Positions 10,866 through 27,107 of a stretch of DNA of 64,000 nucleotides are shown here, in pieces. The notes beneath the pieces were generated by a model. The model ran no database searches and was not told the DNA's origin. It saw nothing but the letters and a program-made list of their open reading frames with translations. The position numbers and the translations under genes are program-made. Origin of the DNA: Lachnospiraceae bacterium NE2001. Lineage in GTDB: Bacteria > Bacillota > Clostridia > Lachnospirales > Lachnospiraceae. The DNA lies in assembly GCA_900110635.1 (NCBI GenBank), contig FOEK01000009.1, forward strand, positions 1 to 64,000, written 5' to 3'. Positions within the stretch are counted from its first letter, which is position 1; each line of letters starts with the position of its first letter.

Positions 10866-10875
10866 ACAGTTGCAC

Positions 10876-11360: not shown

Positions 11361-11398
11361 ATGTGACAAAGCTGTTTCGACAACTTTGTCATATTTTA
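11361..11398. terminator. TGTGACAAA hairpin, probable terminator
   Basis: ATGTGACAAAGCTGT pairs with ACAACTTTGTCATAT (G-T pairs allowed) around a TTCG loop, followed by TTTTAT. It is one of five TGTGACA-type hairpins in this window and probably ends the small membrane protein transcript. Confidence 0.65.
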
Positions 11399-11410
11399 TA
11401 TTTGTCTTGC

Positions 11411-11439
11411 TTGAACTAAGGGGTGTAACTCGGTATAAT
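11411..11439 (+). promoter_or_regulatory. upp promoter
   Basis: TTGAAC (11411-11416), a 17-base spacer and a perfect TATAAT (11434-11439), 45 bases before the upp start. I see no attenuator or PyrR-like structure in the short leader. Confidence 0.75.
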
Positions 11440-11484
11440 CTAATGGAAGGTTATAAACTGTTTTAATCAGAAAAGGAGAAGGTT

Positions 11485-12126
11485 ATGTACAATGATTACC
11501 CAAATGTAAAAGTGATGGAACATCCACTTATTAAGCACAAGATATCGCTTTTAAGAGACAAGAACACAGGTACAAATGAGTTCCGTAAGCTGGTTGAAGA
11601 AATTGCGGTGATGGAGGCTTTTGAAGCATTCAGAGATCTTCCATTAAGAGATGTGGAAGTGGAGACACCTATTGAAAAATGTATGTCTCCAATGATAGAT
11701 GGAAAGAAGCTGGCTATCGTACCTATACTTAGAGCAGGCCTTGGAATGGTAAATGGTATAACAGCTCTTGTTCCTACAGCAAAGGTTGGACACGTTGGTC
11801 TTTACAGAGACCCAGAGACTCACGAACCACACGATTATTACTGCAAGCTTCCTGATCCAATAGATCAGAGACTGATCGTGGTGCTTGACCCTATGCTTGC
11901 TACAGGTGGTTCTGCTGTTGCAGCTGTTGATTTTATAAAGAAGAGTGGTGGAAAGCATATAAAGTTTATGTGTATCATAGCTGCTCCGGAAGGACTGAAG
12001 AGGCTGGCAGAGACTCATCCTGATATTGAGATATATGTAGGAAATGTTGATAGATGCCTGAATGATGATGCTTATATCTGCCCAGGACTGGGAGATGCAG
12101 GAGACCGCATCTTCGGAACAAAATAA
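11485..12126 (+). CDS. upp: Uracil phosphoribosyltransferase
   Basis: 213 residues, close to the usual 208-210. It makes UMP from uracil and PRPP (pyrimidine salvage, cytosolic). The PRPP-binding loop [14 protein letters not shown] and the C-terminal uracil-binding region ending [17 protein letters not shown] are canonical, as is an N-terminal [23 protein letters not shown] precedes the ATG. It is monocistronic, with its own promoter and a strong downstream hairpin. Confidence 0.97.
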
Positions 12127-12144
12127 TCGGTATAGAAATTATAA

Positions 12145-12190
12145 AAAATGTGACAAAGCCGTTTTGAACAGCTTTGTCACATTTTATTTT
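12145..12190. terminator. Bidirectional terminator between upp and the DUF975 gene
   Basis: A perfect 15-base-pair stem (AAAATGTGACAAAGC, 12145-12159, with its complement 12171-12185) with T-rich sequence after it on both strands, placed between convergent genes. It belongs to the TGTGACAAA hairpin family. Confidence 0.9.
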
Positions 12191-12199
12191 GTCTTATAA

Positions 12200-13483
12200 C
12201 TAGATTCCAAATGGTGTATCGTCGTTGTTAGGTGTTACAGTTGAATCTGGATTGTAGTAGTCACCACTTGGTAAAGCTCCGCTTGGAGTAGCACTGCCAG
12301 GAGTAGCATTTCCATCATCCTCAGCTGGTTTACTTGCTAAGCTGTAGGTATTAGTGCTGTTGCCTGGATTGCTTGTTGGTGGTACATAAGGCTCAGATGG
12401 AGCATAGCTGCTAGGAGTGCCATAAGGATCAGGTCCGCCATAAGGATCTGAAGGAGCACCAGGCTGACCGTATGGATCTGAAGGATTATATGGCTGTCCG
12501 CCATAGTTGCCGCCAGCGCCACCTGCAAGTCCGCCAGCACCGCCGTATCCGCCAGCACTGCCACCATAGCCACCAGCACCGCCGCCGTAACCGCCGGCAC
12601 CACCGAAGCCACCCATTCCTGCAAATGAAGGGATATGATAAGGGGAAACATTTGGTCCAAAGTATCCGCTTCTTCTGTCAAGGAAGAACTCAGCGTAGGT
12701 AGCATACATATAAGGACTTACATAGAATATACTGAGTATTCCGCAGGTAAGAGCAGCAAGAAGTGCCCAGCCGATAAATGAAAGCTCAAGTATAAAGGTA
12801 TCCATCTTGTAGCCATCCATCATACGCTTGCTCTGTTCAAGAGCTTCTTTATAACCTATATTTGGATCCTCGCTTAGTATATAGTCAACCATGTAGTATT
12901 CGTAGGATTTAATAAGACCAGGTATGATCAGAAGGAGTGACCATAGGAAGACAAACAGATCTTTCATAAAGAGTACCTTTACTATATTTCCGTATTGTCC
13001 CTTCTTAAAGGCGTATCCTACCTCACCAAACTTTGGCTTCTCAAATGAGTTGATGCAGAAGTATCTGCGGCATCCAACCCTGAGAGGATTCTTAACAAAT
13101 ACTGAGAGAGCAATGCCAAATGCCATAGCAACCAGTGCTATACCAATAATGATCGGGGCCATAGCTCCCAGCATTCCATAGACCATCTGATCCGTAATAC
13201 CATTATCTCCGTGATCATCAGTCAGATCATCAAGGTCATCGAGATCGTCAAAATCGTAATCATAATCGTATTCATCATAATCGTCGGAATCATAATCAAA
13301 ATCGTCAAGATCATAGTTATAAGTGTTCTGAGTATTATTCAGTCTTTTGGTGTAATTGTTTGAAAGATTCAAACTGTTGGTACCGGCGGTCCAGGTGAGA
13401 ATCAGTGCAACACCTACGCATGGCCAGTAGTTATTCTTAAAGGCGGCCATACCCTTTTGTTTTAAATAGGCTCTGTCTATCAT
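12200..13483 (-). CDS. DUF975-like membrane protein with Asp-rich loop and Gly-rich tail
   Basis: 427 residues. The N-terminus (MIDRAYLKQKGMAAFKNNYW) and the four or so central helices resemble DUF975 family proteins, whose function is unknown. Residues ~45-95 form a remarkable Asp/Tyr-rich acidic loop (DYDYDFDDLDDLDD) between the first hydrophobic segment and the next. The C-terminal ~150 residues are a low-complexity tail, first Gly/Gly-Ala repeats (GGYGGGAGGYGGSAGG) and then Pro/Ser/Tyr repeats (DPYGGPDPYGTP). GGAGG lies 7 bases before the ATG. The acidic loop could bind cations and the tail could mediate wall or protein interactions; both are guesses. Confidence 0.75.
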   Translation of the reverse strand: MIDRAYLKQKGMAAFKNNYWPCVGVALILTWTAGTNSLNLSNNYTKRLNNTQNTYNYDLDDFDYDSDDYDEYDYDYDFDDLDDLDDLTDDHGDNGITDQMVYGMLGAMAPIIIGIALVAMAFGIALSVFVKNPLRVGCRRYFCINSFEKPKFGEVGYAFKKGQYGNIVKVLFMKDLFVFLWSLLLIIPGLIKSYEYYMVDYILSEDPNIGYKEALEQSKRMMDGYKMDTFILELSFIGWALLAALTCGILSIFYVSPYMYATYAEFFLDRRSGYFGPNVSPYHIPSFAGMGGFGGAGGYGGGAGGYGGSAGGYGGAGGLAGGAGGNYGGQPYNPSDPYGQPGAPSDPYGGPDPYGTPSSYAPSEPYVPPTSNPGNSTNTYSLASKPAEDDGNATPGSATPSGALPSGDYYNPDSTVTPNNDDTPFGI

Positions 13484-13641
13484 TTATTTACCTCCACAAA
13501 AATATACCACTGAATTATACGATAAATACCTTGAAATGTCTAGAATTTGTCGGGAATTTTGGTATTGTAAAATGCCTTCTTTTGCTTTAAGATATTTATT
13601 GTAACATTGACTGTTTTAGTTATATATAAGGAGATATTTTT

Positions 13642-13989
13642 ATGAGCAACGAACTGTTTGATCTGAATAAAGCCATAAGCAAATTTTCAGAAAAAAAGGG
13701 TTATACTGAAGGTGTAAAATACTATTATAAGATACTTAAGGGAAATCGTGCTGTAAGAAATTCTGAGTATTATGAAATTGTTAAGAAGTTTGGAACTGCA
13801 CTTGATGATTTTGTGGATAAGGAGTCAACCACAGCACTTGTGGATCTGTCCAATATACTGAAAGAGTTTTACCCTGAGGGAACTCTTCCTGATATCTTCG
13901 TATCTGAAGGGCTATCGACAGCATTTAACTGTATCTCTGAATATCTTATGCACCTTGGTTCACTTTATAATCTGGATTATTATGCATAA
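13642..13989 (+). CDS. Hypothetical 115-residue protein
   Basis: A soluble, mainly helical, Tyr/Lys/Glu-rich protein with no signal peptide or membrane helix. AAGGAG lies before the ATG, codon use matches its neighbours, and there are no internal breaks, so it looks real. I do not recognise it. It is followed by a TGTGACAA hairpin and then the lipid-kinase gene in the same direction. Confidence 0.65.
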   Translation: MSNELFDLNKAISKFSEKKGYTEGVKYYYKILKGNRAVRNSEYYEIVKKFGTALDDFVDKESTTALVDLSNILKEFYPEGTLPDIFVSEGLSTAFNCISEYLMHLGSLYNLDYYA

Positions 13990-14026
13990 ATGTGACAAGT
14001 AAGTAACAAGTTAGCATTTGTCACAT
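13990..14026. repeat. TGTGACAA inverted repeat
   Basis: ATGTGACAA (13990-13998) is inverted as TTGTCACAT (14018-14026). There is no T tract after it and it sits 13 bases before the lipid-kinase start, so it is better seen as a repeat or RNA structure than as a terminator. Confidence 0.65.
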
Positions 14027-14039
14027 ACAGGAGAGGGGT

Positions 14040-14978
14040 ATGTATTACTTTATAGTTAATTATACAGGTGGCAGTGGAAAAGCTAAGAAAACCTGGGATA
14101 GAGTTCACCTTTTGCTAAAACAGAAGGGGATTGAATATAAGGCGTTTGTTACCAAGTATGGTGGACACGCGTCTGAACTTGCCAAGAGAATCTCAGAACT
14201 TGAGGAAGAAGATATCAGACTTATCGTGGTTGGCGGAGACGGAACTATAAATGAGGTCTTGAATGGTATCACAGATTTTGATAGAATCCGTTTTGGAGTT
14301 ATTCCAACTGGTTCGGGAAATGATTTCGCTCGAGGTATGGGAATTCCTAAGAATACTGATGAGGCGCTGGACAAGATTCTTGCTTCTTCAAGAGGTATGA
14401 ACATAGATCTTGGCGAGGTAACTACTGAGAATGGTTACAAGAGAATCTTCGGTATCAGCTCAGGTATTGGTCTTGATGCTATAGTATGTAAGAAGATGCT
14501 TAATTCAAAGACCAAGAACGTACTTAATAAGATAAAGCTGGGACATATAGCTTATATTATCCTTACGATTACGACGCTTTTCTCTATGGAAACCTACAAG
14601 GTTAAGGTGTGGATGAAGCTTCGTGATGAGGAGGGAGGAGAGCAGTCCCTTAGTTTTAAGGATCTGATCTTCCTTTCAGCTATGAACTTTCAGGCTGAGG
14701 GAGGCGGCGTTCCTATGAATCCGAATGCTAAGGCTGATGATGGCCTGCTTTCCATATGTGCGGTAAATGGTATCCCTAAGTGGAGAACTTTCCTTCTTCT
14801 TCCTGTTCTTATGAAAGCAAAACACGAAGGAAAGAAGGGATTTATGCTTCAGGATGTTGAGTACCTTGTGTTCGATGCAGATCGTCCTATGGTTCTTCAC
14901 GGCGATGGAGAATATCTTGGTGATGAGAAGCATATCGAGATGAGAGTGCTTAGAAATATTTTAAATGTAATGGTTTGA
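14040..14978 (+). CDS. Diacylglycerol/lipid kinase family protein (YegS/DgkB-like)
   Basis: 312 residues, usual for the DAGK catalytic-domain family. The nucleotide-binding signature VVGGDGTINEVLNG is at ~residues 63-76, followed by GVIPTGSGNDFARGMGIP. The C-terminal beta-rich half ends with a FDADRPMVLHGDGEYLGD motif typical of the family. It phosphorylates a membrane lipid such as diacylglycerol at the inner leaflet; undecaprenol or sphingoid bases are alternatives. CAGGAGAGG precedes the ATG. Confidence 0.9.
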   Translation: MYYFIVNYTGGSGKAKKTWDRVHLLLKQKGIEYKAFVTKYGGHASELAKRISELEEEDIRLIVVGGDGTINEVLNGITDFDRIRFGVIPTGSGNDFARGMGIPKNTDEALDKILASSRGMNIDLGEVTTENGYKRIFGISSGIGLDAIVCKKMLNSKTKNVLNKIKLGHIAYIILTITTLFSMETYKVKVWMKLRDEEGGEQSLSFKDLIFLSAMNFQAEGGGVPMNPNAKADDGLLSICAVNGIPKWRTFLLLPVLMKAKHEGKKGFMLQDVEYLVFDADRPMVLHGDGEYLGDEKHIEMRVLRNILNVMV

Positions 14979-15031
14979 TTTTTTACATAGATTTTACTTA
15001 GGAATAACATATAATTTATAAAAAAGTACTA

Positions 15032-15070
15032 GGATGGATTCTGATGCGTAAATCATCCGAATCCATTTTT
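15032..15070 (+). terminator. Probable terminator of the lipid-kinase gene
   Basis: ATGGATTC and GAATCCAT pair, with an inner GATG/CATC pairing, followed by TTTTTGTT. Confidence 0.7.
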
Positions 15071-15090
15071 GTTAATTTAGGAGAAATGAT

Positions 15091-17115
15091 TTGATAAACT
15101 TTCTGGAATTGTTTGGTGGTGTGGGTCTTTTCTTGTTTGGCATGAATCTTATGGGAAAGTCGCTTGAAAAGCTCGCTGGTGGCGGTCTTGAGAAGATACT
15201 ACAAACTCTGACGACTAGTAAAAGAAAAGGTGTTGGAAATATTAAAGGCTGGGGACTTGGACTTTGTGTTACTGGTATAATCCAGAGTTCAGCTGCAACA
15301 ACTATAATGCTTATTGGTTTTGTAAATGCTGGAATTATGAGTCTGGCTCAGGCAATACCAGTAGTTTATGGAGCAAATGTTGGTAGTACAGTAACTGCAC
15401 AAATATTAAGATTGGGTGATCTTGGTTCTGGAAGTTTGGTTCTCCAATTATTAAAACCATCTTCATTTGCACCGATGCTTGTTGCTGTTGGTACTCTGAT
15501 ATATTTATTTACAAAAAAGCAAAAGCTTAAAGATGTTGCTGGAATACTAGTGGGTCTCGGAACCCTTTTTTATGGAATGACTATGATGGAGGAAGTCTTT
15601 GCTCCTCTTAAAGAGTCAGAACAGTTCCAGAGTTTCTTCTTATCGTTTAGTAATCCTTTTATAGGTATCTTAACAGGTCTATTGTTAACTGCACTGATTC
15701 AAAGTTCCAGTGCCTCTGTTGGTATACTTCAGGCACTTTCAGCTACAGGTGGTGTTACCTATGGCATTGCTATTCCTATTATCATCGGTCAAAATATTGG
15801 TAAATGTATGACAATTATTATTGGTGGAATAGGAGCAAATAAAAAAGCAAAGAGAGTGGCTCTTAGTTATCTTCTTTTCAATATAGTTGGCGCAATCATT
15901 TTTACCATTATTATATATTCAATATATTACACAGTGGGTATTCCGTTTTTTGCTAAGACAGTTAACCGAGGCGATATCGCAAATATCCATCTTGCTTTTA
16001 ATCTTATCATAAGTGTAGTTCTTCTGCCATTTTCAAAGCAGATGGCTGATCTGACCGGAAAACTTCTTAGAGATTCAGATGAAAATCCAAGTGATGTAGA
16101 ATTTAAGAAACTTGATGATATGCTTCTTAAAACCCCTGGTATTGCTTTGGCTCAGTGTAGAAATCTTATGAATATGATGAGCGAAAAACTGCTTCGCAAT
16201 TATGAATTATCAATTTCTCTTTTATCTGAATATGATAAGACTGCATTTAATGAGTTAAATGAAAATGAAGATTTTATAGATAAGTGTGAGACCATTCTCA
16301 CGGCCTATATGGTAAAGATAGATAGAAGCAGACTCACCATAGACAATAAGAATATGCTTACTGAAATGCTAAGTACAGTGGGGGATTACGAGAGAATAGG
16401 TGATTATTCTATGAATATAGCCTTTACTGCTCAGGAGTGTTATGAAGGGAAGATAAAGTTTTCTGAAAAAGGAAAGAATGAGATCGATACTATTACTGAT
16501 GCTGTAAGGCATTTGCTTAAAATGACATTTGATGCAACGAATAGCGAGAATATTAATGAGGCATATAAGGTTTATCCGCTATCAAAAACAGTAAATATGA
16601 TGAAAGATTTGATAGAACAGCATCATGTTGAGAGGCTGAGAGATGGTGATTGTGGTGTTATAGGTGGTCTGGCTTTATATGATCTTACTAGTAGTCTTGA
16701 TAGAATATCGCTTCATACAAAGATTATTTCAAAATATATTATGAAACGACTTACAAGAAATGATGAGATTGATGCAAGTCACGGAGATTTGATAGATAAG
16801 CAAAGCGAACAATATCAATCTCTGGAATCATATTATAGAAATAAGTATTATTTGCCAATTAGTCAGCTTGATAAAGTAGAAGAAGTTCAAAATGAGAAAA
16901 ATGAAAAAGAAATTAGTATAGATAAGAAATCAGATAAAAAGAAATCAGATAAAAAGAAAGAAAAGTCTGCTGACAAAAAGAAACCGGAGATTAATAAGAA
17001 GGATAGTGGCAAAAAGAAGCAAGTTAAAAAGGATAGCGGCAAAAAAAATGATGCAAAGAAGAATAAAGGGAATAAAGAAAAAGTTGATAAGACTAAGAAC
17101 GGTGATAAGAGGTAA
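15091..17115 (+). CDS. Na/phosphate cotransporter family protein with PhoU-like domain and Lys-rich tail
   Basis: 674 residues. The start is TTG at 15091: TAGGAGA is 6 bases upstream, and the nearer ATG at 15086 runs into a stop at once. Residues 1-320 carry the two inverted NptA/PNaS repeats with their diagnostic QSSAATT and QSSSASVG motifs and about eight helices. Residues ~340-560 form a PhoU-like helical region (three-helix bundle repeats). The last ~75 residues are a low-complexity Lys/Asp/Ser tail (KKSDKKKSDKKKEKSADKKK-type). It imports inorganic phosphate with Na+. Immediately after it lies a broken response-regulator gene, suggesting a former phosphate two-component partner. Confidence 0.9.
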   Translation: MINFLELFGGVGLFLFGMNLMGKSLEKLAGGGLEKILQTLTTSKRKGVGNIKGWGLGLCVTGIIQSSAATTIMLIGFVNAGIMSLAQAIPVVYGANVGSTVTAQILRLGDLGSGSLVLQLLKPSSFAPMLVAVGTLIYLFTKKQKLKDVAGILVGLGTLFYGMTMMEEVFAPLKESEQFQSFFLSFSNPFIGILTGLLLTALIQSSSASVGILQALSATGGVTYGIAIPIIIGQNIGKCMTIIIGGIGANKKAKRVALSYLLFNIVGAIIFTIIIYSIYYTVGIPFFAKTVNRGDIANIHLAFNLIISVVLLPFSKQMADLTGKLLRDSDENPSDVEFKKLDDMLLKTPGIALAQCRNLMNMMSEKLLRNYELSISLLSEYDKTAFNELNENEDFIDKCETILTAYMVKIDRSRLTIDNKNMLTEMLSTVGDYERIGDYSMNIAFTAQECYEGKIKFSEKGKNEIDTITDAVRHLLKMTFDATNSENINEAYKVYPLSKTVNMMKDLIEQHHVERLRDGDCGVIGGLALYDLTSSLDRISLHTKIISKYIMKRLTRNDEIDASHGDLIDKQSEQYQSLESYYRNKYYLPISQLDKVEEVQNEKNEKEISIDKKSDKKKSDKKKEKSADKKKPEINKKDSGKKKQVKKDSGKKNDAKKNKGNKEKVDKTKNGDKR

Positions 17116-17117
17116 TA

Positions 17118-17306
17118 ATGGCAAATATATATATTGTTGAAGACGATGTAAATATATTAGAGATAGAATCTTATTCCTTGAAGAGTAGCGGTCATATTGT
17201 GGAAGGATATGAAAGGGCTGAATCATTTTTTTAAAGAATTGATGAACAATTACCTGATCTGGTGTTACTAGATATTATGCTTCCAGATGTGGATGGATTG
17301 GAACTA
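17118..17306 (+). pseudogene. Remnant of an OmpR/PhoB-type response regulator
   Basis: An ATG two bases after the symporter stop begins a receiver domain: ANIYIVEDDVNILEIE with the acidic pair, 38 codons in all, then a TAA at 17232-17234 after a run of seven T. The same frame continues past the stop with DLVLLDIMLPDVDGLE, the phospho-acceptor strand, and then similarity ends near 17306. The rest of the receiver, the winged-helix domain and any partner kinase are gone. This is a nonsense mutation plus a large deletion in a response regulator that probably followed the phosphate symporter, PhoB/PhoP-like by position. The 312-base gap 17116-17427 otherwise holds only a terminator and the copA leader. 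Confidence 0.85.
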
Positions 17307-17329
17307 CAATCAGTATATTATTTAAATAA

Positions 17330-17368
17330 AAGTCAATGGGGGGATTGCCTCATTGACTTATTTTTTTA
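17330..17368 (+). terminator. Terminator after the response-regulator remnant
   Basis: AAGTCAATGGGG pairs with CCTCATTGACTT (one G-T pair), followed by seven T. It may be the original terminator of the deleted operon, now right behind the deletion joint. Confidence 0.85.
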
Positions 17369-17393
17369 TTGTGTTATATTAGAGATGACTAAC

Positions 17394-17423
17394 TACATTT
17401 TTAAAGTTTAAATGTATTACATT
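17394..17423. promoter_or_regulatory. Candidate copper-responsive operator before copA
   Basis: Overlapping palindromes: TACATTT (17394-17400) inverted at 17410-17416, and AATGTA-T-TACATT (17411-17423). They sit directly before the Cu-ATPase start. They resemble TACA/TGTA-type cop boxes only loosely, so the assignment rests on position. Confidence 0.35.
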
Positions 17424-17439
17424 TTAGATGGTTTTTGAT

Positions 17440-20019
17440 ATGAGAAAGTTTGAGGTAAATGGTATGAGTTGCGCCGCTTGTCAGGCGCGTGTGGAGAAGG
17501 CTGTGTCGGGCGTCAAGGGTGTGGATTCTTGTGCTGTCAGCCTTCTTACTAATTCGATGGGCGTGGAAGGCTCTGCCAGTGATGATGATATAATAAAAGC
17601 AGTGGAAGCGGCTGGGTATGGCGCCTCGGTTATGGAAAGGGCTCTGGAGGATAAAGAGTCTCCCAAACTTGTGAGACGTCTTGTCAGCTCTATCGGCATC
17701 TTACTTCTTTTGATGTATCTATCCATGGGACATATGATGCTGGGATGGCCTGTCCCATCTGGTTTACATAATCATGTAACTCTGGCTATAGTTGAGATGA
17801 TTCTTGCCATAGCTGTAATGGTTATAAATAATAAGTTTTTTGTAAGTGGCTTCAGGTCACTATTTCATCTTGCTCCAAATATGGACACCCTCGTAGCCCT
17901 CGGCAGTACGGCTTCATTTGGCTATAGTCTTGTGGAGCTTTTTATTATGATTAGGGCTTCATCCAGAGGTGACTCTGATACGGTTATGAGCTATGCAATG
18001 AATCTGTATTTTGAGTCTGCCGCTATGATACCAACACTTATAACTATTGGAAAACTTCTTGAGGCAAAGGCTAAGGGAAGAACCACAAACGCTCTTAAGA
18101 GTCTTCTTGCTCTGTCACCTAAGGAAGCCCGGGTATTACGGGATGGACAGGAAATCAACGTTCCGGTTGAGGATGTAAAGGTTGGTGATATTTATATCCT
18201 GAAAGCTGGCGATGCTGTTCCTGTTGATGGAGTAGTGCTGGAAGGCACTTCGGCTATTGACGAGTCTGCACTTACAGGAGAGAGTATTCCTGTTGATAAA
18301 CAGCAGGGAGATAAAGTTTCTGCTGGCACGATCAATACAAATGGTTTCTTAAAATGTACCGCCACCAGAGTGGGGGAGGATACAACCCTGTCACAGATAA
18401 TTCAGATGGTTGGTGACGCGGCAGCAACAAAGGCTCCACTTGCCCGTATTGCTGATAAAGTGTCGGCTATATTTGTTCCAACTGTAATGGGTCTTGCACT
18501 ACTTACATTTATAGTATGGGTTATTATAGGACAGACACCAGGTTTTGCCATAGCCAGAGCAATATCCGTGCTTGTTATCAGCTGTCCTTGTGCTTTGGGA
18601 CTAGCAACCCCTGTTGCTATAATGGTTGGAAATGGAGTCGGAGCAAAGAATGGTATATTATACAAAACTGCAGAAGCTCTGGAAGGTGCAGGACGTGTTA
18701 ATGCTGTGATTCTAGATAAGACAGGAACTATTACAAAGGGCGAACCTGGAGTTACTGATGTTATTCCAGCTGATGGAGTTAGTAGCGAAGAACTACTAAC
18801 TATTGCTTATAGTCTGGAAAAAATGTCAGAGCATCCGCTGGCCAGAGCTGTTGTTGATTATGTTAGTGATATTTCAACTATTGAACTGACAAACTTTGAA
18901 ACAATGGCTGGGGCTGGTATAAAGGCTGTCGTAAGCACTTCTTTTTCTGGTGATGGCTGGAACGTTGAAGAAGGAAAGCTGTTAGAAGGTGGAAGCCTAA
19001 AATATATGAAGGACAGACTTCATAACTCTGATACCATTGACACAGCCAATAAGCTATCTTTAGATGGAAAGACTCCGCTTCTTTTTATGGAAGGAGAACG
19101 TTTTCTTGGTATTATAGCTGTGGCAGATCAGGTGAAAGAGGATAGTGCTGAGGCGATAAATGAGCTGAAGCAGATGGGTATCTATACAGTTATGTTAACT
19201 GGAGATAATGAGGTAACAGCAAATGCTATTGCTAAAAAAGTCTTTGTTGATAAGGTGATTGCAGGGGTTATGCCTAGTCAGAAGGAACAGGTGGTTGCTT
19301 CTTTACAGAAAATTATGTCAACTAATTTGAAAGCGGATTCCTCCGGTGCTTTAAAGTCAGATCCGAAATCATACAGGGTTGCCATGGTTGGTGATGGAAT
19401 AAATGATGCAGTTGCACTTACCAGGGCAGATACAGGCTTTGCTATAGGAGCAGGAACTGACGTTGCTGTTGAAGCAGCTGATGTGGTGCTTATGAAGAAC
19501 AGCATTAAAGATGCTGCGGCTGCCATAAGGCTCAGCAGGAAAACCATCACAAACATACACCAGAATCTGTTTTGGGCATTTTTCTATAATGCTCTTTGTA
19601 TACCGCTTGCTATGGGGGTATATGGTATAGCTATGAAACCAATGTATGGCGCAGCAGCTATGGCTTGCTCAAGTGTATTTGTCTGTCTAAATGCACTTCG
19701 ACTAAATCTTGTAAGGCTTTATGATTCAAGTAAAGATAAGCCTCTCAAGAAGAATAATTATCAAATAGATAAATGTCAAATAATAGATAAAAATGAAGGA
19801 GATAATGAGATGAAGAAGACTATTAAAATCGAAGGAATGATGTGTCCACATTGTGAGGCTACTGTAAAGAAGGCGCTTGAAGCACTTGATGGTGTAACCA
19901 GTGCCGAGGCCAGCCACGAAAAGGGAATCGCTGAGGTGGTTCTCGAGAAGGAGGTGTCAGATGACATTTTAACAAAGGCTGTTACAGATAAGGATTATAC
20001 AGTTGTTGGTATTGAATAG
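17440..20019 (+). CDS. copA: Cu(+)-exporting P1B-type ATPase with C-terminal CopZ-like domain
   Basis: About 859 residues from ATG 17440 (MRKFEVNGMSCAAC, the usual family N-terminus); an in-frame ATG at 17428 is possible, and neither has a strong ribosome site. In order: N-terminal HMA domain with GMSCAAC, eight membrane helices, actuator TGES loop, CPC metal site in SCPCALGLATP, phosphorylation motif DKTGTITKG, SEHPLA and the hinge GDGINDAVAL. After the last helix a ~25-residue Lys/Asn/Asp linker leads to a second HMA domain with GMMCPHC. That terminal domain is unusual, since N-terminal HMA domains are the rule. It also has its own ribosome site and ATG (separate entry). It exports cytosolic copper across the membrane. 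Confidence 0.95.
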   Translation: MRKFEVNGMSCAACQARVEKAVSGVKGVDSCAVSLLTNSMGVEGSASDDDIIKAVEAAGYGASVMERALEDKESPKLVRRLVSSIGILLLLMYLSMGHMMLGWPVPSGLHNHVTLAIVEMILAIAVMVINNKFFVSGFRSLFHLAPNMDTLVALGSTASFGYSLVELFIMIRASSRGDSDTVMSYAMNLYFESAAMIPTLITIGKLLEAKAKGRTTNALKSLLALSPKEARVLRDGQEINVPVEDVKVGDIYILKAGDAVPVDGVVLEGTSAIDESALTGESIPVDKQQGDKVSAGTINTNGFLKCTATRVGEDTTLSQIIQMVGDAAATKAPLARIADKVSAIFVPTVMGLALLTFIVWVIIGQTPGFAIARAISVLVISCPCALGLATPVAIMVGNGVGAKNGILYKTAEALEGAGRVNAVILDKTGTITKGEPGVTDVIPADGVSSEELLTIAYSLEKMSEHPLARAVVDYVSDISTIELTNFETMAGAGIKAVVSTSFSGDGWNVEEGKLLEGGSLKYMKDRLHNSDTIDTANKLSLDGKTPLLFMEGERFLGIIAVADQVKEDSAEAINELKQMGIYTVMLTGDNEVTANAIAKKVFVDKVIAGVMPSQKEQVVASLQKIMSTNLKADSSGALKSDPKSYRVAMVGDGINDAVALTRADTGFAIGAGTDVAVEAADVVLMKNSIKDAAAAIRLSRKTITNIHQNLFWAFFYNALCIPLAMGVYGIAMKPMYGAAAMACSSVFVCLNALRLNLVRLYDSSKDKPLKKNNYQIDKCQIIDKNEGDNEMKKTIKIEGMMCPHCEATVKKALEALDGVTSAEASHEKGIAEVVLEKEVSDDILTKAVTDKDYTVVGIE
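19810..20019 (+). CDS. Internal CopZ-like copper chaperone start within copA
   Basis: In frame with copA, an ATG at 19810 begins a 69-residue heavy-metal-associated domain (MKKTIKIEGMMCPHCEAT), exactly the length and N-terminus of a free CopZ/CopP chaperone. AAGGAG at 19796-19801 is 8 bases upstream, a better ribosome site than that of copA itself. So the region probably gives both a fused domain and a free chaperone. The simple origin is loss of the copA stop codon before a downstream copZ. Confidence 0.7.
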   Translation: MKKTIKIEGMMCPHCEATVKKALEALDGVTSAEASHEKGIAEVVLEKEVSDDILTKAVTDKDYTVVGIE

Positions 20020-20163
20020 AGCGGTTTACATAAATGAAATCAAATACAAATAAAAGAAATTAAGGCATATAATTTCGTTAAAAATGACGGAAATTTTAAG
20101 TTGCACCAAACGCTACTTTTATAGTATCGTTATGGGGTACAAAAGCTTGGGGAGGACAGCAAT

Positions 20164-21348
20164 ATGGTTACTAATATTTCAGATTCAATTAAGTATGTAG
20201 GGGTTGATGATCACGAGCTTGATCTGTTTGAGGGACAGTACATTGTTCCTGACGGAATGGCATATAATTCATACGTTATCGTAGATGAGAAGACAGCTGT
20301 TATGGACACTGTTGATGGAAACTTCACTGATGAGTGGATTGCAAATGTTAAAGAAGCTCTTGGTGACAGAGGCCTGGATTACATTGTCGTACAGCATATG
20401 GAGCCTGATCATTCAGGAAGCTTTGGAAAGGCTATAGAGGTCTTCCCAAATGCAAAGATCGTTGGTAATGCTAAGACATTTGTCTTTATTGGTCAGTTCT
20501 TTGATGGACTGGATATAGAGGATAGAAAAGTAGTTGTAACTGAGGGCGATACGCTGTCTCTTGGTTCACATACTTTGAAGTTTATCCTTGCGCCAATGAT
20601 CCATTGGCCAGAGGTTATGATGACCTATGAAGAGAGCGAGAAGGTGTTCTTCTCAGCAGACGCATTTGGCAAGTTTGGTGCACTGGACTATGATGATCCA
20701 GAGGGCTGGGCTTGTGAAGCTAGACGTTACTATTTTGGAATTGTTGGAAAGTACGGAGTTCCTGTTCAGGGGCTTCTTAAGAAGGCAGCTAGCCTGGAGA
20801 TAGAGAAGATCCTGCCTCTTCACGGACCAGTTCTTCCAATGCCTGGTGACGAGCTTAGCTACTATATAGATACCTATAATACCTGGAGCAGCTATGAGCC
20901 AGAGACTCACGGAGTATTCGTGGCTTATGCTTCGATTCACGGAAATACAGCAAAGGCAGCGAACAAGCTGGCAGAGATGCTGGAAGCACGCGGCGAGAAG
21001 GTCGCTATCTCTGATATTTGCAGAGAGGATATGGCAGAGTGTGTAGAGGATGCATTTAGATATGACCGTATGGTTATCTGCTCCTCCAGCTACGATGGTG
21101 GCATCTTCCTTCCAATGTTTGATTTCCTGAATCATTTAACAGTTAAGACATATCAGAACCGCAAAGTATTCATTATGGAAAATGGATCCTGGGCTCCAAG
21201 TGCAGCTAGAACTGCAAAGGGTATCATCGAGGGATGGAAGAACGTAACACTTCTTGACCCGGTTGTGACAATAAAGAGCACTATGAAGGATAGCGATATC
21301 CCTAATATAGAAGCACTGGCTGACGCTATTGTTGAGGCTGGTAAATAA
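20164..21348 (+). CDS. FprA-family A-type flavoprotein (flavodiiron O2/NO reductase)
   Basis: 394 residues, the standard two-domain length. The N-terminal metallo-beta-lactamase-like diiron domain has HMEPDHSGS (the H-x-E-x-D-H ligands), then a His in MIHWPEVM, Asp in SADAFGKFG and His in LPLHGPV. The C-terminal flavodoxin domain begins near VFVAYASIHGNTAKAA, the FMN phosphate loop, with the SSSYDGG loop further on. It reduces O2 to water or NO to N2O in the cytosol of strict anaerobes, fed by rubredoxin or a similar donor that is not encoded nearby. GGGGAGGA lies before the ATG. Confidence 0.95.
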   Translation: MVTNISDSIKYVGVDDHELDLFEGQYIVPDGMAYNSYVIVDEKTAVMDTVDGNFTDEWIANVKEALGDRGLDYIVVQHMEPDHSGSFGKAIEVFPNAKIVGNAKTFVFIGQFFDGLDIEDRKVVVTEGDTLSLGSHTLKFILAPMIHWPEVMMTYEESEKVFFSADAFGKFGALDYDDPEGWACEARRYYFGIVGKYGVPVQGLLKKAASLEIEKILPLHGPVLPMPGDELSYYIDTYNTWSSYEPETHGVFVAYASIHGNTAKAANKLAEMLEARGEKVAISDICREDMAECVEDAFRYDRMVICSSSYDGGIFLPMFDFLNHLTVKTYQNRKVFIMENGSWAPSAARTAKGIIEGWKNVTLLDPVVTIKSTMKDSDIPNIEALADAIVEAGK

Positions 21349-21387
21349 TTATATTGCATTTTACCTGCAATAAAAAAGGAGTTAACA

Positions 21388-22806
21388 ATGGGTGGATTTT
21401 TTGCAACAGCATTAAAGAGTGATTCTGTTTTTGATCTTTTTTATGGAACAGATTATCATTCACATCTTGGAACAAGACGTGCAGGACTTGTAGTTCATGG
21501 CAGAAATGGATTCAACAGGGCTATTCACAATATCGAGAATGCACCATTTAGAAGTAAGTTCGGTAAGGACGTGCACGAGATGGAGGGAAATCTTGGTATC
21601 GGATGTATCTCAGATTATGATCCTCAGCCGCTGCTTGTTCGTTCACATCACGGAACCTACGCTATAGCTTGTGTAGGTAAGATAAATAACTCAGATGAGC
21701 TTCTTGCTGATGTATTTAGGAACGGCGGATCACATTTCCAGATGATGAGTACTGGCGAGGTTAATAAGACTGAGCTTACAGCTGCACTTATTAATCAGAA
21801 GGATAATATCATCGAGGGTATCAAGTTTGCACAGGAATCAATTGATGGTTCTATGACTATACTTCTGCTGACTCAGGATGCTGTATATCTTGCGCGCGAC
21901 AAGTTTGGTCGTACTCCACTTGTTATTGGTTATAAAGAAGGAGAGGGCTTCTGCGCTGCATTTGAATCCTTCTCATATTTGAATCTCGGTTATAAGGATT
22001 TTAAGGAAATGGGTCCTGGCGAGATTGATGTTATGACTCCAGAGGCTGTTACTGTTATGGAGAAGCCGGGAGAGAAGCTTAGAATATGTACATTCCTTTG
22101 GGTTTATTACGGATATCCTTCATCAAGATATGAGGGTGTCTCAGTTGAGGAAATGAGATATAAGTGTGGTGAGGCACTTGCTAAGAGAGATGGTTACACC
22201 AAGGCTGAGATCGACTCAGTTGCTGGAGTACCTGATTCTGGAACAGCACATGCTATGGGATATGCAAATGAATCTGGCGTACCATTTTCCCGACCTTTTG
22301 TAAAGTACACACCAACCTGGCCACGTTCATTTATGCCAACACATCAGAACAAGCGTAATCTGATCGCTAAAATGAAACTTATTCCAGTACATGAGCTGAT
22401 TGATGGCAAGAAGCTTCTTCTTATCGACGATTCAATCGTTAGAGGAACACAGCTTCGCGAGACCACAGAATTCCTGTACGAGAGTGGAGCATCAGAGGTT
22501 CATATCAGACCTGCTTGTCCACCACTTCTCTTTGGATGTAAATATATCAACTTCTCCAGATCCAACTCAGAGATGGAGCTTATCGCAAGACGTGTGATCG
22601 CTGAGGAAGAGGGAGAAGAAGTAGAACGTACAATCCTGGATGATTATGCAAATCCAGATTCAGACAGATATCACCTGATGCTGGAGAAGATCAGACAGAA
22701 GCTGAACTTCACATCACTTAAGTTCAATCGTCTGGACGATATGATCGCTGCAACCGGAATGGATAAAGACCAGCTTTGCACATACTGCTGGGACGGCCGC
22801 GAATAA
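21388..22806 (+). CDS. PurF-like amidophosphoribosyltransferase lacking the N-terminal catalytic Cys
   Basis: 472 residues with the PurF domain order: N-terminal glutamine amidotransferase fold (MGGFFATALK..., then LGTRRAGLVV, GNLGIGCISD), and a C-terminal phosphoribosyltransferase domain with the PRPP loop LLIDDSIVRGTQLRET and the family-type end CTYCWDGRE. The usual second residue Cys (MCG...) is Gly here, so glutamine hydrolysis by the Ntn nucleophile should not work. It could use free ammonia, serve as a regulatory paralogue, or act on another substrate. AAGGAG precedes the ATG, and no other start would restore a Cys. It is not in a purine operon here. Confidence 0.85.
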   Translation: MGGFFATALKSDSVFDLFYGTDYHSHLGTRRAGLVVHGRNGFNRAIHNIENAPFRSKFGKDVHEMEGNLGIGCISDYDPQPLLVRSHHGTYAIACVGKINNSDELLADVFRNGGSHFQMMSTGEVNKTELTAALINQKDNIIEGIKFAQESIDGSMTILLLTQDAVYLARDKFGRTPLVIGYKEGEGFCAAFESFSYLNLGYKDFKEMGPGEIDVMTPEAVTVMEKPGEKLRICTFLWVYYGYPSSRYEGVSVEEMRYKCGEALAKRDGYTKAEIDSVAGVPDSGTAHAMGYANESGVPFSRPFVKYTPTWPRSFMPTHQNKRNLIAKMKLIPVHELIDGKKLLLIDDSIVRGTQLRETTEFLYESGASEVHIRPACPPLLFGCKYINFSRSNSEMELIARRVIAEEEGEEVERTILDDYANPDSDRYHLMLEKIRQKLNFTSLKFNRLDDMIAATGMDKDQLCTYCWDGRE

Positions 22807-22813
22807 AAGAACA

Positions 22814-22851
22814 AAAGCCGATTCTCTATTTTGAGAATCGGCTTTATTTTT
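22814..22851. terminator. Bidirectional terminator
   Basis: A perfect 13-base-pair stem (AAAGCCGATTCTC with GAGAATCGGCTTT), loop TATTTT, tail ATTTTTA on the plus strand and a T-rich tail on the minus strand. It separates the convergent PurF-like and rlmH genes. The half-motif CCGATTCTC recurs at both ends of the repeat-bracketed ABC gene (39263 and 41835). Confidence 0.9.
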
Positions 22852-23347
22852 ACTTGTGGTAGGGTTCATGGTTGATGATGCGGTAGCTGCGGTAGATTTG
22901 TTCCAGCAGGATAACTCGCATTAATTGGTGGGGAAATGTCATAGGCGAAAAACTCAGGTGGTAGTTTGAACGGGATATAACAGAATTATGTAAACCAAGG
23001 GAACCGCCAATTATAAAGATTAAATGACTCACTCCATTTATTCCGAGGCTTTCGATCTGTTTGGCCAGCTGTTCACTGGTTAGCTGTTTACCTTTTATTT
23101 CCAGAGTTATGACATAGGTGTCTGTTCCTTCACCGGTTGCATCAGGGATGTATTTTAATAGTCGTTCAGCTTCTTTGGAGAGTATTCCGTCGATTACGTT
23201 TTCGCTAGCATTGTCAGGTGTTTTTTCATCGGCTACCTCAATGATGTTTAATGTGGCGTAACGGCTGAGCCTTTTTTTATACTCATCCAGCGCATCCCTA
23301 TAAAACTTTTCTTTTATTTTTCCAACACATAGTATATCAATCTTCAT
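22850..23347 (-). CDS. rlmH: 23S rRNA (pseudouridine1915-N3)-methyltransferase
   Basis: 165 residues, near the usual 155-160, starting MKIDILCVGKIKEKFY. It is a SPOUT methyltransferase with the SAM-knot segment FIIGGSLGLHNSV and the invariant C-terminus RVILLEQIYRSYRIINHEPYHK-like. It uses SAM to methylate pseudouridine 1915 in helix 69 of 23S rRNA. It is a single gene convergent with the PurF-like gene. Confidence 0.96.
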   Translation of the reverse strand: MKIDILCVGKIKEKFYRDALDEYKKRLSRYATLNIIEVADEKTPDNASENVIDGILSKEAERLLKYIPDATGEGTDTYVITLEIKGKQLTSEQLAKQIESLGINGVSHLIFIIGGSLGLHNSVISRSNYHLSFSPMTFPHQLMRVILLEQIYRSYRIINHEPYHK

Positions 23348-23360
23348 ATTTTCACCATTT

Positions 23361-23420
23361 ACAAGACAGGGGACGGTTCTCTGTCCGATTTTTAAGACAG
23401 AGAACCGTCCCCTGTCTTGT
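23361..23420. repeat. 60-base palindrome of the GACAGGGGACGG type
   Basis: Perfect 25-base arms (23361-23385 and 23396-23420, beginning ACAAGACAGGGGACGG) around a 10-base loop, between the divergent rlmH and vanZ-like genes. A partial copy lies at 37219-37271. There is no T tract, so it is not a plain terminator. The form fits a REP element. Confidence 0.85.
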
Positions 23421-23503
23421 TGTCTTGTTTGTAATTATATTCCAGATGTATTATAATCGATATTTGTATTTGTTTAAAGATTATATAAAGGAAAAAATAC
23501 TGT

Positions 23504-24058
23504 ATGGAGATGATTAATAGATTACATTTGAATAAGCGGAAGAAGGTTTTCTGGATTCTGTCGTTTATAATGATGATTACAATATTCGTATTCTCGGCGA
23601 GAGATGCTGAGGATTCGACTAGGGATAGTCATAAGGTTGGTAAGACCATCGGCTATATCAGAGAGTACGATTTTGAAAACTGGACAGCCGATGCACAGGA
23701 AAGGTATGCATCAAGGCTTGATCATCCAATACGAAAGACAGCGCATTTTCTTGAGTATATGACTTTGGGAATCCTTTTGTTTGGAGCTATATATGATTCA
23801 CCTTATGATCATGTCGATGAGAAAAAGAATGATCAAGATGCAGAAAATAAAGGATTAATGAAGTTAAATGTTAAAAATGCACTTATTCCCTGGTGCATTA
23901 CCACTTTATATGCCGCTACAGATGAATTTCACCAGCTTTTTGTATCAGGACGTTCTGGCGGCCCCATAGATATCATCATAGACGGTACAGGGGCGCTTGT
24001 GGGAGTAGGACTGGCATTCCTGGCTACAAAGCTATTCTCTCGTTACCTTAATTCCTAA
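23504..24058 (+). CDS. VanZ-like family membrane protein
   Basis: 184 residues with four hydrophobic segments. Family marks are FSARDAEDST after the first helix, HPIRKTAHFLEYMTLG, and DEFHQLFVSGRSGGPIDIIID near the third and fourth helices. The molecular role is unsettled; the founding member gives low-level teicoplanin resistance. The ATG follows AAAGGAAAA. The 3' end overlaps the convergent SulP gene by 27 bases. Confidence 0.88.
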   Translation: MEMINRLHLNKRKKVFWILSFIMMITIFVFSARDAEDSTRDSHKVGKTIGYIREYDFENWTADAQERYASRLDHPIRKTAHFLEYMTLGILLFGAIYDSPYDHVDEKKNDQDAENKGLMKLNVKNALIPWCITTLYAATDEFHQLFVSGRSGGPIDIIIDGTGALVGVGLAFLATKLFSRYLNS

Positions 24059-25720
24059 GGTAGTCATATTTACAACCTTGAGGCAGGTTTCGATGTCTTT
24101 TTGAACGGTGCCGTTCTCTAAAAGCTCGCCTGCTCCGTATCGTTTAAGTTCACCGTTGACTACTCCGTCATTTTCTGCGAAGAAGAATCGGATGCCACGT
24201 TTGGTGAGACTCTTTGTCAGTGCCATTAGTCTGTCGGTGGCAGTTATATCTACGTTGTTTATACCGCTGGCGTTTATTATGACAACGTGGGTCTCTTCGT
24301 TGATCGCAGCTTCGATATCATTTACAAATGTATCTATATTTGCAAAGAACAGATTGCCGCCAAATCGGTATATAACTACTCCAGGTATTGGTTCAGCATC
24401 CTCGTGTGCTTTAAGAGAGTAGAAGCCCTCGTGTCCTGGGCGGATACCGACAAGAGTACGTGGTGGTGATACAGCTTCTCTTATTACAGCAAAGAAAGAT
24501 AGGATTACACCGATTACCACTCCATAAACTGTTCCAAAGAAAAGAACTCCTACTGAGGCAGAAATAAATATCCAGAAATCACGCTTGCTGGTCTTTCTTA
24601 GTCTGGCTGCCAGATGGAACTCGCAGGCGGATAGAAGTGCAGCGATGATAATTCCAGTCAGTATAGGAACAGGCATAAGAGGAATAAATCTTGTGCAGAA
24701 TATAAGAATGACTGCCATGGAAATAGAAGCAGAGATGCTCATTATCTGAGAGCGTCCGCCAAACTGTCGCACTATGCTGGTTCTCGATACGCTGGCATTT
24801 ACTGGACAGCAGCCGAAGACGGCAGAGACTATATTCGCCATAGAATAGCTGAGAACCTCACGGGAGGTATCAAGATCGTAGCCGTCCTCTATAGCATTTG
24901 ATCGGGATGCCAGCATGGTTTCTGACATAATAACCAGTGCTATGGTCAGTGCTGAGAATCCCAGGTCAGGCAGTATATTAAAATCTATATGTAGAAGTTT
25001 TGGAACTGGAAGTCCGGTTGAGGTTTCTGGCAGTATCATTATTCCATAGTTCTCAAGCCTGAAGAAAACATTTAACAGTATTCCTATAACAAGCATTACA
25101 ACAGACATTGGGAGTTTTGGCAGGAGTTTCTTAAACACCAGGATAATAACCACTGTCATTATTCCTAAGCAAAATGATAGCGGATTAAAGACCTTCAGCT
25201 CCGTTACCCAGTGCAGGATCAGTTCTGGCAGTTCGCCAGTTCCAGGGCCGCCGCCCCAGAGTTTTGGAAGCTGCATTGATATGATCTCGAGGCATATACC
25301 TGTGATGAAACCGCCCATAACAGGAACTGAAATGTATTTTACAGCGCGTCCTGCCTTAAGAAAGAAGAACAGGAGAAGCCATAGCCCTACAAGAAAAGTA
25401 AGAACTGGAACAGCATTTATTGCTTCTTCACTGCCACTGGCTATATGAAGAGCGGCAATGGTGCCGCCTGTCAGAGCAGCTGGAGCAGCATTTACACCGA
25501 ATACAAAATCGTATGACGATGTGATGATTCCGAAAACTAAAATGGGGAGAAAAGAACCGTATAGGCCGTAAATCATAGGAAGCCCTGCAATCTGTGCGTA
25601 TCCCATGGATATAGGGATTGAGACCAGGGCAACAATGATGCCGGAGAGTATGTCCTTTATAATGTATGAGGACTTGTAGTTCTCGGGAAATTTAGTTTTT
25701 AGATATGCATTTTGATCCAT
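24032..25720 (-). CDS. SulP-family anion transporter with STAS domain
   Basis: 562 residues, the usual SulP length: an N-terminal block of 10-14 helices (IAGLPMIYGLYGSFLPI is the typical first-pair motif) and a C-terminal STAS domain (~435-550) with IINASGINNVDITATDRL. It carries sulfate, bicarbonate or another inorganic or dicarboxylate anion. I see no ribosome site before the ATG. The candidate -10 ends 6 bases upstream of it, so the message may be leaderless. It is divergent from the carboxypeptidase gene, with a shared -35 element. Confidence 0.92.
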   Translation of the reverse strand: MDQNAYLKTKFPENYKSSYIIKDILSGIIVALVSIPISMGYAQIAGLPMIYGLYGSFLPILVFGIITSSYDFVFGVNAAPAALTGGTIAALHIASGSEEAINAVPVLTFLVGLWLLLFFFLKAGRAVKYISVPVMGGFITGICLEIISMQLPKLWGGGPGTGELPELILHWVTELKVFNPLSFCLGIMTVVIILVFKKLLPKLPMSVVMLVIGILLNVFFRLENYGIMILPETSTGLPVPKLLHIDFNILPDLGFSALTIALVIMSETMLASRSNAIEDGYDLDTSREVLSYSMANIVSAVFGCCPVNASVSRTSIVRQFGGRSQIMSISASISMAVILIFCTRFIPLMPVPILTGIIIAALLSACEFHLAARLRKTSKRDFWIFISASVGVLFFGTVYGVVIGVILSFFAVIREAVSPPRTLVGIRPGHEGFYSLKAHEDAEPIPGVVIYRFGGNLFFANIDTFVNDIEAAINEETHVVIINASGINNVDITATDRLMALTKSLTKRGIRFFFAENDGVVNGELKRYGAGELLENGTVQKDIETCLKVVNMTTLGIKVTRE

Positions 25721-25726
25721 AAATCA

Positions 25727-25756
25727 AATATACACTATGGCTCCTTGTGCTTGCAA
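25727..25756 (-). promoter_or_regulatory. Minus-strand promoter of the SulP gene
   Basis: On the minus strand: TTGCAA (25751-25756), an 18-base spacer and TATATT (25727-25732), with the ATG only 6 bases after the -10. The only AAGGAG nearby lies inside the spacer and so would not be transcribed from this promoter. Confidence 0.5.
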
Positions 25757-25779
25757 GTTTTAGTGTGATTTGTTAAAAT
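25751..25779 (+). promoter_or_regulatory. Plus-strand promoter of the carboxypeptidase gene
   Basis: TTGCAA (25751-25756), a 17-base spacer and TAAAAT (25774-25779), 35 bases before the ATG. TTGCAA is its own reverse complement and also serves the opposite promoter. Confidence 0.6.
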
Positions 25780-25814
25780 CAATGCTGGTTTTGTGAAGGT
25801 GATTGGAGAGTAAA

Positions 25815-27107
25815 ATGAAAAAAGGTTTAGTTATATTTTTGAGAGTCCTTTTGGTGTTTGTTATAGTGGCTCTCGCATCCCTGCTTATTGCAATCTTTAT
25901 TGGTGTGATGAGCAAGACTAAGAAAGAAGATACAGTGGCTGAGGAAACAACGGAGGTTGTTACGGAGGCGACTACAGAGGCTGAGAGACATTCGGCTACA
26001 GAAGCCACAGAGGAGATAGTGCCAAATGGAGACGCAGCCGGTATAGATCCAGACAGCTTTATGGCTGATTTTACAATCTATGATCCTGTATCAACAGATG
26101 ATACGATCCATCTTCCTTGGGCAGATATGAATAAGTTCCAGGAGGTTATAGCAAATAGTTCTGGAAATGACAGCTCCAGCAACGATGATGCCAGCGGTGG
26201 CAGCGCCTGGGATACTGTGTCTCTTTCACTTAACAGCGTGGAAGGTTCAATCAATTACAGTACTCCGGGAGATGCTACAAAGACTCAGACTCTGGTAAGT
26301 ACATATATGATACTGGTGGATCTTGATACAGATACAATAGTAGCAGAGAGAAACTGTGAAGCAGTTGTAAGCCCTGCTTCTATGACAAAGATTCTTACAG
26401 TGCTAACTGCACGTGATTTTATAGACGAAACAACCCTTGATGACAAGTTTGTAGTATCAGAGGATATTACAGAGTATGTCAGAAAGAACGACTGTAGTGC
26501 AGTTGGATTTACTCCTAACTCTGAGGTGACAGTCAGGGACCTTCTGTATGGAACAATTCTTCCATCAGGTGCTGATGCAGCCATGGGTCTTGCTGAGTTC
26601 TGCTGTGGATCTCAGGAAGCCTTTGTAGAAGCTATGAATAAGAAGGTTGAGGAGCTTGGTCTCTCTGAAACGGCACATTTCACCAATGTTGTTGGAATGT
26701 ACGATCCAGACCTTCATTGTACTATGAAGGATATGTCAGTTATTCTGGGAGTAGCAGTTCAGGACGATCTGCTTCGTGATGTCCTGTCTCTCAGAACTTA
26801 TTCCACAGATGCAACATTTATCTTTGCTGACTCCACCGAGGAGGGAACAAGCGAGGAGGATGTTCCGGAAGAGGACAAGAGACCTATCGAGGTGTCCAAC
26901 TGGTTCCTTCGCAAGATAGAGGATAAGGAAATGGATGGAAATGTTATAGCAGCCAAGACTGGCTTTGTAAATGAGTCTGGTTGCTGCGCTGCCAGCTACT
27001 ATGAGGCTGACAACGGCAAGCGTTATATCTGTGTCACAGGAAACGCATTTAGCTCCTGGAGAGCAATCTACGACCACGTCTCCATCTACCGTTCACTCAC
27101 CGACTAA
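25815..27107 (+). CDS. D-alanyl-D-alanine carboxypeptidase (class A low-mass PBP)
   Basis: 430 residues from ATG 25815, chosen over an in-frame TTG at 25803 because GGAG lies 6 bases upstream and the N-terminus then reads MKKGLVIFLRVLL. A single N-terminal membrane helix is followed by ~120 residues rich in Thr/Glu/Ser/Asp (a wall-crossing spacer), then the S11-type penicillin-binding domain with SMTK (S-x-x-K), SGA in place of S-x-N (LPSGADAAMG), and KTG (AAKTGFVNESG). It trims the terminal D-Ala from peptidoglycan pentapeptides outside the cell. It ends 20 bases before the sugar-sensor gene. Confidence 0.9.
   Translation: MKKGLVIFLRVLLVFVIVALASLLIAIFIGVMSKTKKEDTVAEETTEVVTEATTEAERHSATEATEEIVPNGDAAGIDPDSFMADFTIYDPVSTDDTIHLPWADMNKFQEVIANSSGNDSSSNDDASGGSAWDTVSLSLNSVEGSINYSTPGDATKTQTLVSTYMILVDLDTDTIVAERNCEAVVSPASMTKILTVLTARDFIDETTLDDKFVVSEDITEYVRKNDCSAVGFTPNSEVTVRDLLYGTILPSGADAAMGLAEFCCGSQEAFVEAMNKKVEELGLSETAHFTNVVGMYDPDLHCTMKDMSVILGVAVQDDLLRDVLSLRTYSTDATFIFADSTEEGTSEEDVPEEDKRPIEVSNWFLRKIEDKEMDGNVIAAKTGFVNESGCCAASYYEADNGKRYICVTGNAFSSWRAIYDHVSIYRSLTD

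Follow-up and report, generated by a model that had tools for sequence, protein, structure and literature searches.

A conserved internal start signal in clostridial copA genes and a predicted free CopZ-like copper chaperone

The copA gene in the window (the whole stretch of 64,000 nucleotides from Lachnospiraceae bacterium NE2001 that was analyzed) very likely has two products: judged from its sequence and that of its relatives, it appears to encode a copper pump and, by in-frame internal initiation of translation, a free CopZ-like chaperone. Ribosomes entering at the 5' end would make the full pump, with an N-terminal HMA domain and a C-terminal chaperone-type HMA domain borne on a linker. 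Other ribosomes would bind at AAGGAG inside the gene, where the sequence is AT-rich and weakly structured, start at ATG 19810, and, staying in frame, make a free CopZ-like Cu(I) chaperone of 69 residues. This protein would take up cytosolic Cu(I) and pass it to the pump, and the two would be induced together. The first-pass annotation of this DNA had suggested that one message could yield both transporter and chaperone, and this idea is supported by a start signal that is kept in the genus, in the family, and in 34 family codes of the class. If it is true, a pump gene also supplies a copper chaperone, whose own ribosome-binding site governs how much of it is made; database entries would show a single protein in place of two, and there would be a second route, besides the E. 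coli frameshift, from one gene to a copper pump and a chaperone.

The copA gene of the window and its predicted products

The features of this region are as follows:
17330..17380, + strand: terminator-like hairpin with a T run (stem 17330-17359), overlapping a promoter-like site (17353-17380); pattern matches only
17428..20019, + strand: copA(Z), Cu(I)-exporting P1B ATPase with N- and C-terminal HMA domains, from the open frame, Pfam, NCBIfam, and solved relatives
17449..17619, + strand: N-terminal HMA domain, transporter-type, motif CAAC, from the translation and Pfam
19723..19809, + strand: linker from the aligned ATPase core to the C-terminal HMA domain, from alignment of the core
19796..19801, + strand: internal Shine-Dalgarno sequence AAGGAG, 8 nt before ATG 19810, kept in relatives
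19810..20019, + strand: internal in-frame ORF, predicted free CopZ-like chaperone, 69 residues, MMCPHC

The copA frame (17428-20019, + strand) is unbroken over 863 codons, or 859 if it begins at ATG 17440. Position 17440 had been annotated as the gene start; it is in frame, yet it is the second ATG (Met5), and the first ATG is 17428. Shine-Dalgarno pairing is weak at 17440 (-3.3 kcal/mol), and 17428 has no match (+0.8 kcal/mol). The 863-residue product has Pfam matches to two HMA stretches, E1-E2_ATPase, and Hydrolase, exceeds the NCBIfam cut-offs of TIGR01525 (588.4 versus 346.25 bits) and TIGR01511 (542.1 versus 397 bits), and has copper-exporting ATPases as its best solved relatives. Cu(I)-exporting P1B ATPases are marked by a membrane CPC, DKTGT, GDGxND, and an N-terminal CxxC; the translation carries ISCPCALG, DKTGT, GDGIND, and MSCAAC. 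By these marks the gene encodes a copper-exporting P1B ATPase, and copper transport is its predicted function. The intact frame and the second Pfam HMA match bear out the earlier description of a complete HMA domain fused at the C terminus. The same annotation had named a stop codon between the domains as one finding that would speak against it; there is none, and a second contig of the same genome matches the window at every base over 14,232 bases spanning copA, a match that may reflect assembly redundancy rather than independent resequencing.

The AAGGAG-N8-ATG arrangement and the 69-residue ORF that had been annotated within the gene are both present: ATG 19810 is in frame, the spacing is 8 nt, and the pairing is -9.2 kcal/mol, compared with +0.8 and -3.3 at the pump ATGs. 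The predicted 69-residue product, with the motif MMCPHC, scores 48.3 bits against PF00403 (cut-off 24.8). AlphaFold2 predicts a complete fold for it (pLDDT 96; elements E2-8, H13-24, E29-35, E40-45, H51-59, and E64-68), and its residues 2-69 align with the solved CopZ 1k0v. It scores below the NCBIfam CopZ cut-offs (NF047957, 52.3 versus 85; NF033795, 50.4 versus 91; NF033794, 46.9 versus 95); thus, we refer to it as CopZ-like. The available part of a review (PMC7558416) assigns the motif MxCxHC to the CopZ2-like subgroup of chaperones. Among the relatives, CxHC is found in the C-terminal HMA domain of 211 of 222 genes and in the N-terminal HMA domain of 0 of 216, and by this motif the former domain is chaperone-type and the latter transporter-type. 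The predicted role of the 69-residue product is that of a free soluble chaperone that would bind Cu(I) and deliver it to CopA. The internal site is stronger than the pump start in 78 of 129 relatives and equal in 2 (p 0.001; p values in this work overstate the evidence because related sequences are not independent), and on average it is comparable or somewhat stronger. We infer that the internal start is used in the cell and that chaperone synthesis is no less frequent than pump synthesis; in the window's host, the chaperone would be in excess of the pump.

Conservation of the internal start signal

Relatives of copA were collected by whole-protein search of 61 genomes of the genus and 150 genomes of the family, 144 of which had a match. 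In the genus, 55 copA loci were analyzed (49 fused, 4 not fused, 1 with a foreign C terminus, and 1 truncated), and 6 of the 61 genomes had no copA match or a partial one. The family set, drawn at nearly one genome per genus and leaving out two partial matches at contig edges (G077 and G166), has 145 loci among the matches listed: 109 fused, 33 not fused, 2 truncated, and 1 with an unaligned C terminus (L268), which does show a C-terminal HMA domain with a Met. The main set thus comprises 158 distinct fused copA genes, 49 from the genus and, among the matches listed, 109 from the family. For the class, 293 genomes were searched and 65 loci in 35 family codes were analyzed, namely 25 of the 30 first returned (2 loci already in the collection and 3 repeats were dropped) and 40 picked by hand across families; because the picks were mostly chosen for a fused look, the 65 loci are informative about the start signal in fused genes but not about how common fusion is. 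A further set of 80 loci, genome_contigs, was kept separate; 10 of its loci repeat genus or family loci, and its records are mostly metagenome bins whose taxon labels may err. Ascertainment through the seed KNEGDNEM was considered and rejected, as the seed is absent from all analyzed fused genome_contigs loci.

Among the matches listed, 150 of the 158 fused genes have a Met no more than 25 codons upstream of the first Cys in the C-terminal HMA domain, and in 132 of the 158 it lies exactly 11 codons before that Cys (-11). The median Shine-Dalgarno pairing at this Met is -8.9 kcal/mol, versus -2.7 at the 3979 in-frame Mets found elsewhere in these genes. Base pairing to the 3' end of the 16S rRNA reaches -5 kcal/mol or lower at 144 of the 150 internal Mets versus 844 of the 3979 others, and -8 kcal/mol or lower at 121 versus 92. 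Within the same linkers, -8 or lower is reached at 82% of the Mets but at only 2.5% of 6841 other codon boundaries (214 genes, 150 from the main set and 64 from the class set). Met is rare in these linkers (125 of 7693 residues), linker length runs from 17 to 57 residues across relatives (10th to 90th percentile), and the spacing from Shine-Dalgarno sequence to start has its mode at 8-9 nt. Separate copZ genes of relatives share the same layout of Shine-Dalgarno sequence, ATG, and HMA domain. A chance coincidence of Shine-Dalgarno sequence and ATG is rejected by the other-Met, same-linker, and synonymous controls. In a small control, 12 boundaries of second N-terminal HMA domains, only 2 had a Met, with pairing of -1.7 and -1.6, so that a general property of HMA boundaries is rejected as well.

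The signal reaches well beyond the family. Fused genes make up 64 of the 65 class loci, in 34 family codes including the window's own, and the remaining locus is a split copA-copZ. All 64 have an ATG at the last C-terminal HMA domain with pairing of -5 or lower, and 55 reach -8 or lower. In the genome_contigs set, 54 loci are fused and 50 have the Met, 49 of these with pairing of -5 or lower and 44 with -8 or lower; those without it are L064, L078, L087 (doubtful HMA), and L095 (TTG). Named records with the signal are mostly Clostridia, with a few labeled Negativicutes and Coriobacteriia; within genome_contigs, it is also present in records labeled Negativicutes and in one labeled Coriobacteriia. 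Three records of Kiritimatiellia were counted as fused, two of them without a Met, and one of these two is probably not HMA. Fused copA genes are also found on plasmid records of Ruminococcus albus 7, Roseburia sp. 831b, and Butyrivibrio fibrisolvens D1, with internal-site pairing of -11.1, -5.8, and -5.9, respectively. Each has a metal-sensing repressor gene ahead of it and is annotated as one protein; consequently, any chaperone made from these genes would go unannotated.

The motif occurs over many residue pairs (KE, KG, EE, EG, GG, QE, TE, and others), and codon choice, as seen in these sequences, favors the start signal. Lys-Glu is written AAGGAG in 47 of 73 cases at the site versus 133 of 746 elsewhere, Lys-Gly has GGA in 22 of 22 versus 258 of 598, Gly-Gly is GGAGG in 10 of 10 versus 66 of 270, and Glu-Gly is GAAGGA in 13 of 16 versus 209 of 685; Gln-Glu, Thr-Glu, and Ser-Glu at the site show no significant codon bias. 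Shuffling synonymous codons within each gene gave an expected mean of -6.4 versus the observed -8.8 (Wilcoxon p 3e-21), a test that is moderate for each gene by itself (median single-gene p 0.27). The 50 nt at the start have a median folding energy of -0.85 kcal/mol, compared with -9.6 at sampled other Mets and -7.5 at other linker positions, and the difference from linker positions persists within three GC bins. Low G+C accounts for much of this weak structure, because composition-preserving shuffles give a mean folding z of only 0.17 at the start.

Taken as a comparison of sequences, the case for a functional internal start is strong. What this conservation points to is selection on an initiation-like signal, rather than its use or the function of its product. 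As for its origin, we lean toward an ancient copA-copZ fusion, present in many families of the class, in which the copZ start has been held since in a freely diverging linker.

Alternative explanations and known systems

On a different reading, the C-terminal HMA domain is only a tethered domain for regulation or delivery, and the Shine-Dalgarno sequence and ATG are a relic of an ancestral separate copZ. The domain is indeed in frame in most relatives fetched, split copA-copZ relatives exist, and the tethered domain may also serve the fused pump; moreover, the C-terminal Cu site of Archaeoglobus fulgidus CopA has a suggested regulatory role, according to the accessible part of PMC7558416. A relic, however, should decay in freely diverging linkers, yet the signal stands in fused genes of 34 family codes, the fused state has only 9 changes on the tree described below, and codon choice is biased toward the motif. 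We consider this reading unlikely. It is more improbable still that the Shine-Dalgarno-like sequence serves to slow elongating ribosomes while the membrane domain folds or inserts. Such pausing would suit the place of the motif, after the last membrane segment and ahead of the C-terminal domain, but it requires no start codon at start-like spacing (mode 8-9 nt), and it leaves aside that the distance from the signal to the HMA domain is constant while linkers range from 17 to 57 residues, that the signal sits at the last HMA domain of tandems, and that TTG may stand for ATG.

A free chaperone could also arise by a frameshift after the N-terminal HMA domain, which is how E. coli copA yields a free HMA chaperone, by programmed frameshifting, according to the available parts of PMC9548414 and PMC10187127. 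In the window gene, codons 50-100 contain no X-XXY-YYZ heptamer; in the relatives, such a heptamer occurs within the tested stretch of 40 of 152 genes (48 of 5320 positions, 0.9% versus 0.5% elsewhere), with no common motif. We give this explanation the least weight of the three, and the first-pass annotation's view that the gene represents a solution different from the E. coli frameshift agrees with the slippery heptamer being absent from the window gene and not conserved in relatives. One might also invoke a separate internal promoter ahead of the chaperone ORF; one weak promoter-like match (+ strand, 19698-19725, 9 of 12) lies shortly 5' of the internal start. In-frame internal initiation remains our preferred explanation.

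The E. coli gene, copA or CopA(Z), is reportedly the subject of Meydan et al. 2017 and Drees et al. 2017, which we know through papers that cite them. It matches what is proposed for the window gene in having two products, a copper pump and a free HMA chaperone. The difference is that the E. coli chaperone is the pump's N-terminal HMA domain and is made by frameshift, whereas in-frame internal initiation of a C-terminal CopZ-type HMA domain is proposed here. The csoR-copA-copZ operon of Staphylococcus haemolyticus plasmid pBNF01A (L367) encodes the same two products, with copZ just 3' of copA under its own Shine-Dalgarno sequence and start, and has a metal-sensing repressor gene before copA, as do the fused loci L364-L366. 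In contrast, the window gene has no stop between the two parts, so that the pump also bears the chaperone domain, and no metal-sensing repressor gene lies directly ahead of copA in the window. Genes such as arcB and infB are examples of in-frame internal initiation and share with the proposed arrangement a shorter C-terminal product made from an internal start in the same frame. In-frame internal initiation is an accepted phenomenon in bacteria, as stated in the available part of PMC11955535. In the portions of the open-licence PMC literature that were covered, we found neither a description of an internal copZ start in copA nor a copper pump or chaperone example of in-frame internal initiation. 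A. fulgidus CopA likewise has a C-terminal Cu site on a P1B ATPase; there, CopZ is a separate chaperone fused to an iron-sulfur domain, and an internal start is unreported (accessible part of PMC7558416).

Fused, split, and start-less relatives and the genomic context

Relatives that are fused, split, or start-less offer natural tests of the proposed internal start, and synonymous mutations can part chaperone production from the pump sequence. Where copA carries two C-terminal HMA domains (L204, L225, L047, and L354), the start signal is at the last one. L019 and L095 have TTG instead of ATG at -11, with pairing of -9.4 and -11.9, respectively. Fourteen of the 158 fused genes failed the first criterion, and a wider look rescued 8 of them post hoc, giving 152 of 158: four by another ATG (L031, L155, L245, and L254), two by TTG (L019 and L208), and two at the last of two HMA domains (L204 and L225). 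The weakest rescue is L208, where the TTG precedes the Cys by 19 codons and, 33 nt downstream, there is a separate copZ-like ORF. In L027, L031, L034, and L254, the predicted chaperone begins with MFGFGKK or MFGKKK, its start lying 17-26 codons ahead of the Cys and again behind a Shine-Dalgarno sequence.

No usable internal start was found in 6 of the 158 fused genes (L129, L142, L187, L197, L207, and L229). On the tree, L129 and L142 group with L128, L139, and L141, which lack the C-terminal domain, and the end of L129 is identical to that of Eubacterium ruminantium L064. The genome with L229 (G121) has a 76-residue HMA ORF elsewhere. Relatives with separate copA and copZ genes, which the first-pass annotation had proposed looking for, do exist: in L226, L253, L257, and L350, a separate copZ lies behind the copA stop. 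A separate small HMA ORF is present in the fetched family stretch of 24 of 35 non-fused loci versus 13 of 110 fused ones; two truncated genes are counted among the 35, and several matches in the 24 are weak. Some fused genes, e.g., L165, L179, L208, and L228, have a further small HMA gene downstream, and other small HMA ORFs occur in the genomes of fused relatives. Many genomes of the genus contain standalone HMA ORFs of about 117-148 residues, and L149:2335-2709 encodes a 124-residue FeoB-associated Cys-rich membrane protein with an HMA domain, downstream of a FeoB-like GTPase (by eye).

A FastTree tree built from 258 copA cores requires no fewer than 9 changes of the fused state; the tree is unrooted, and gain and loss of the fusion are indistinguishable on it. 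So few changes disfavor a relic of recent fusion. In L032 (and L058), the C-terminal part of copA is swapped in frame for another sequence, presumably resembling the acetolactate synthase small subunit, which is either an assembly chimera or a gene fusion.

The hairpin and promoter-like site upstream of copA suggest that the gene is transcribed alone; 16 promoter-like sites were found versus 8.9 expected, all of them pattern matches. Just 5' of the copA start, a palindrome, ATGTATTACAT, was seen by eye at 17412-17422; it is a possible operator, considered because no repressor gene directly precedes copA, unlike in L364-L366. Between a Na/Pi cotransporter-PhoU gene and copA lies a broken response-regulator remnant (17118-17330) with an in-frame stop, and its second half matches Response_reg weakly, below the curated cut-off.

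Beyond two identical copA copies, the HMA matches in the host genome are two proteins, both without CxHC: a FeoB-associated membrane-type protein with CSNC and a small protein with CAAC beside an ArsR-like gene and a ZntA-like pump (named by eye). The second copA copy lies on contig C49, where positions 20000-34231 equal window positions 8641-22872 with 0 mismatches in 14,232 bases and the contig ends at 34231; this repeat is probably assembly redundancy and possibly a true duplication that includes copA.
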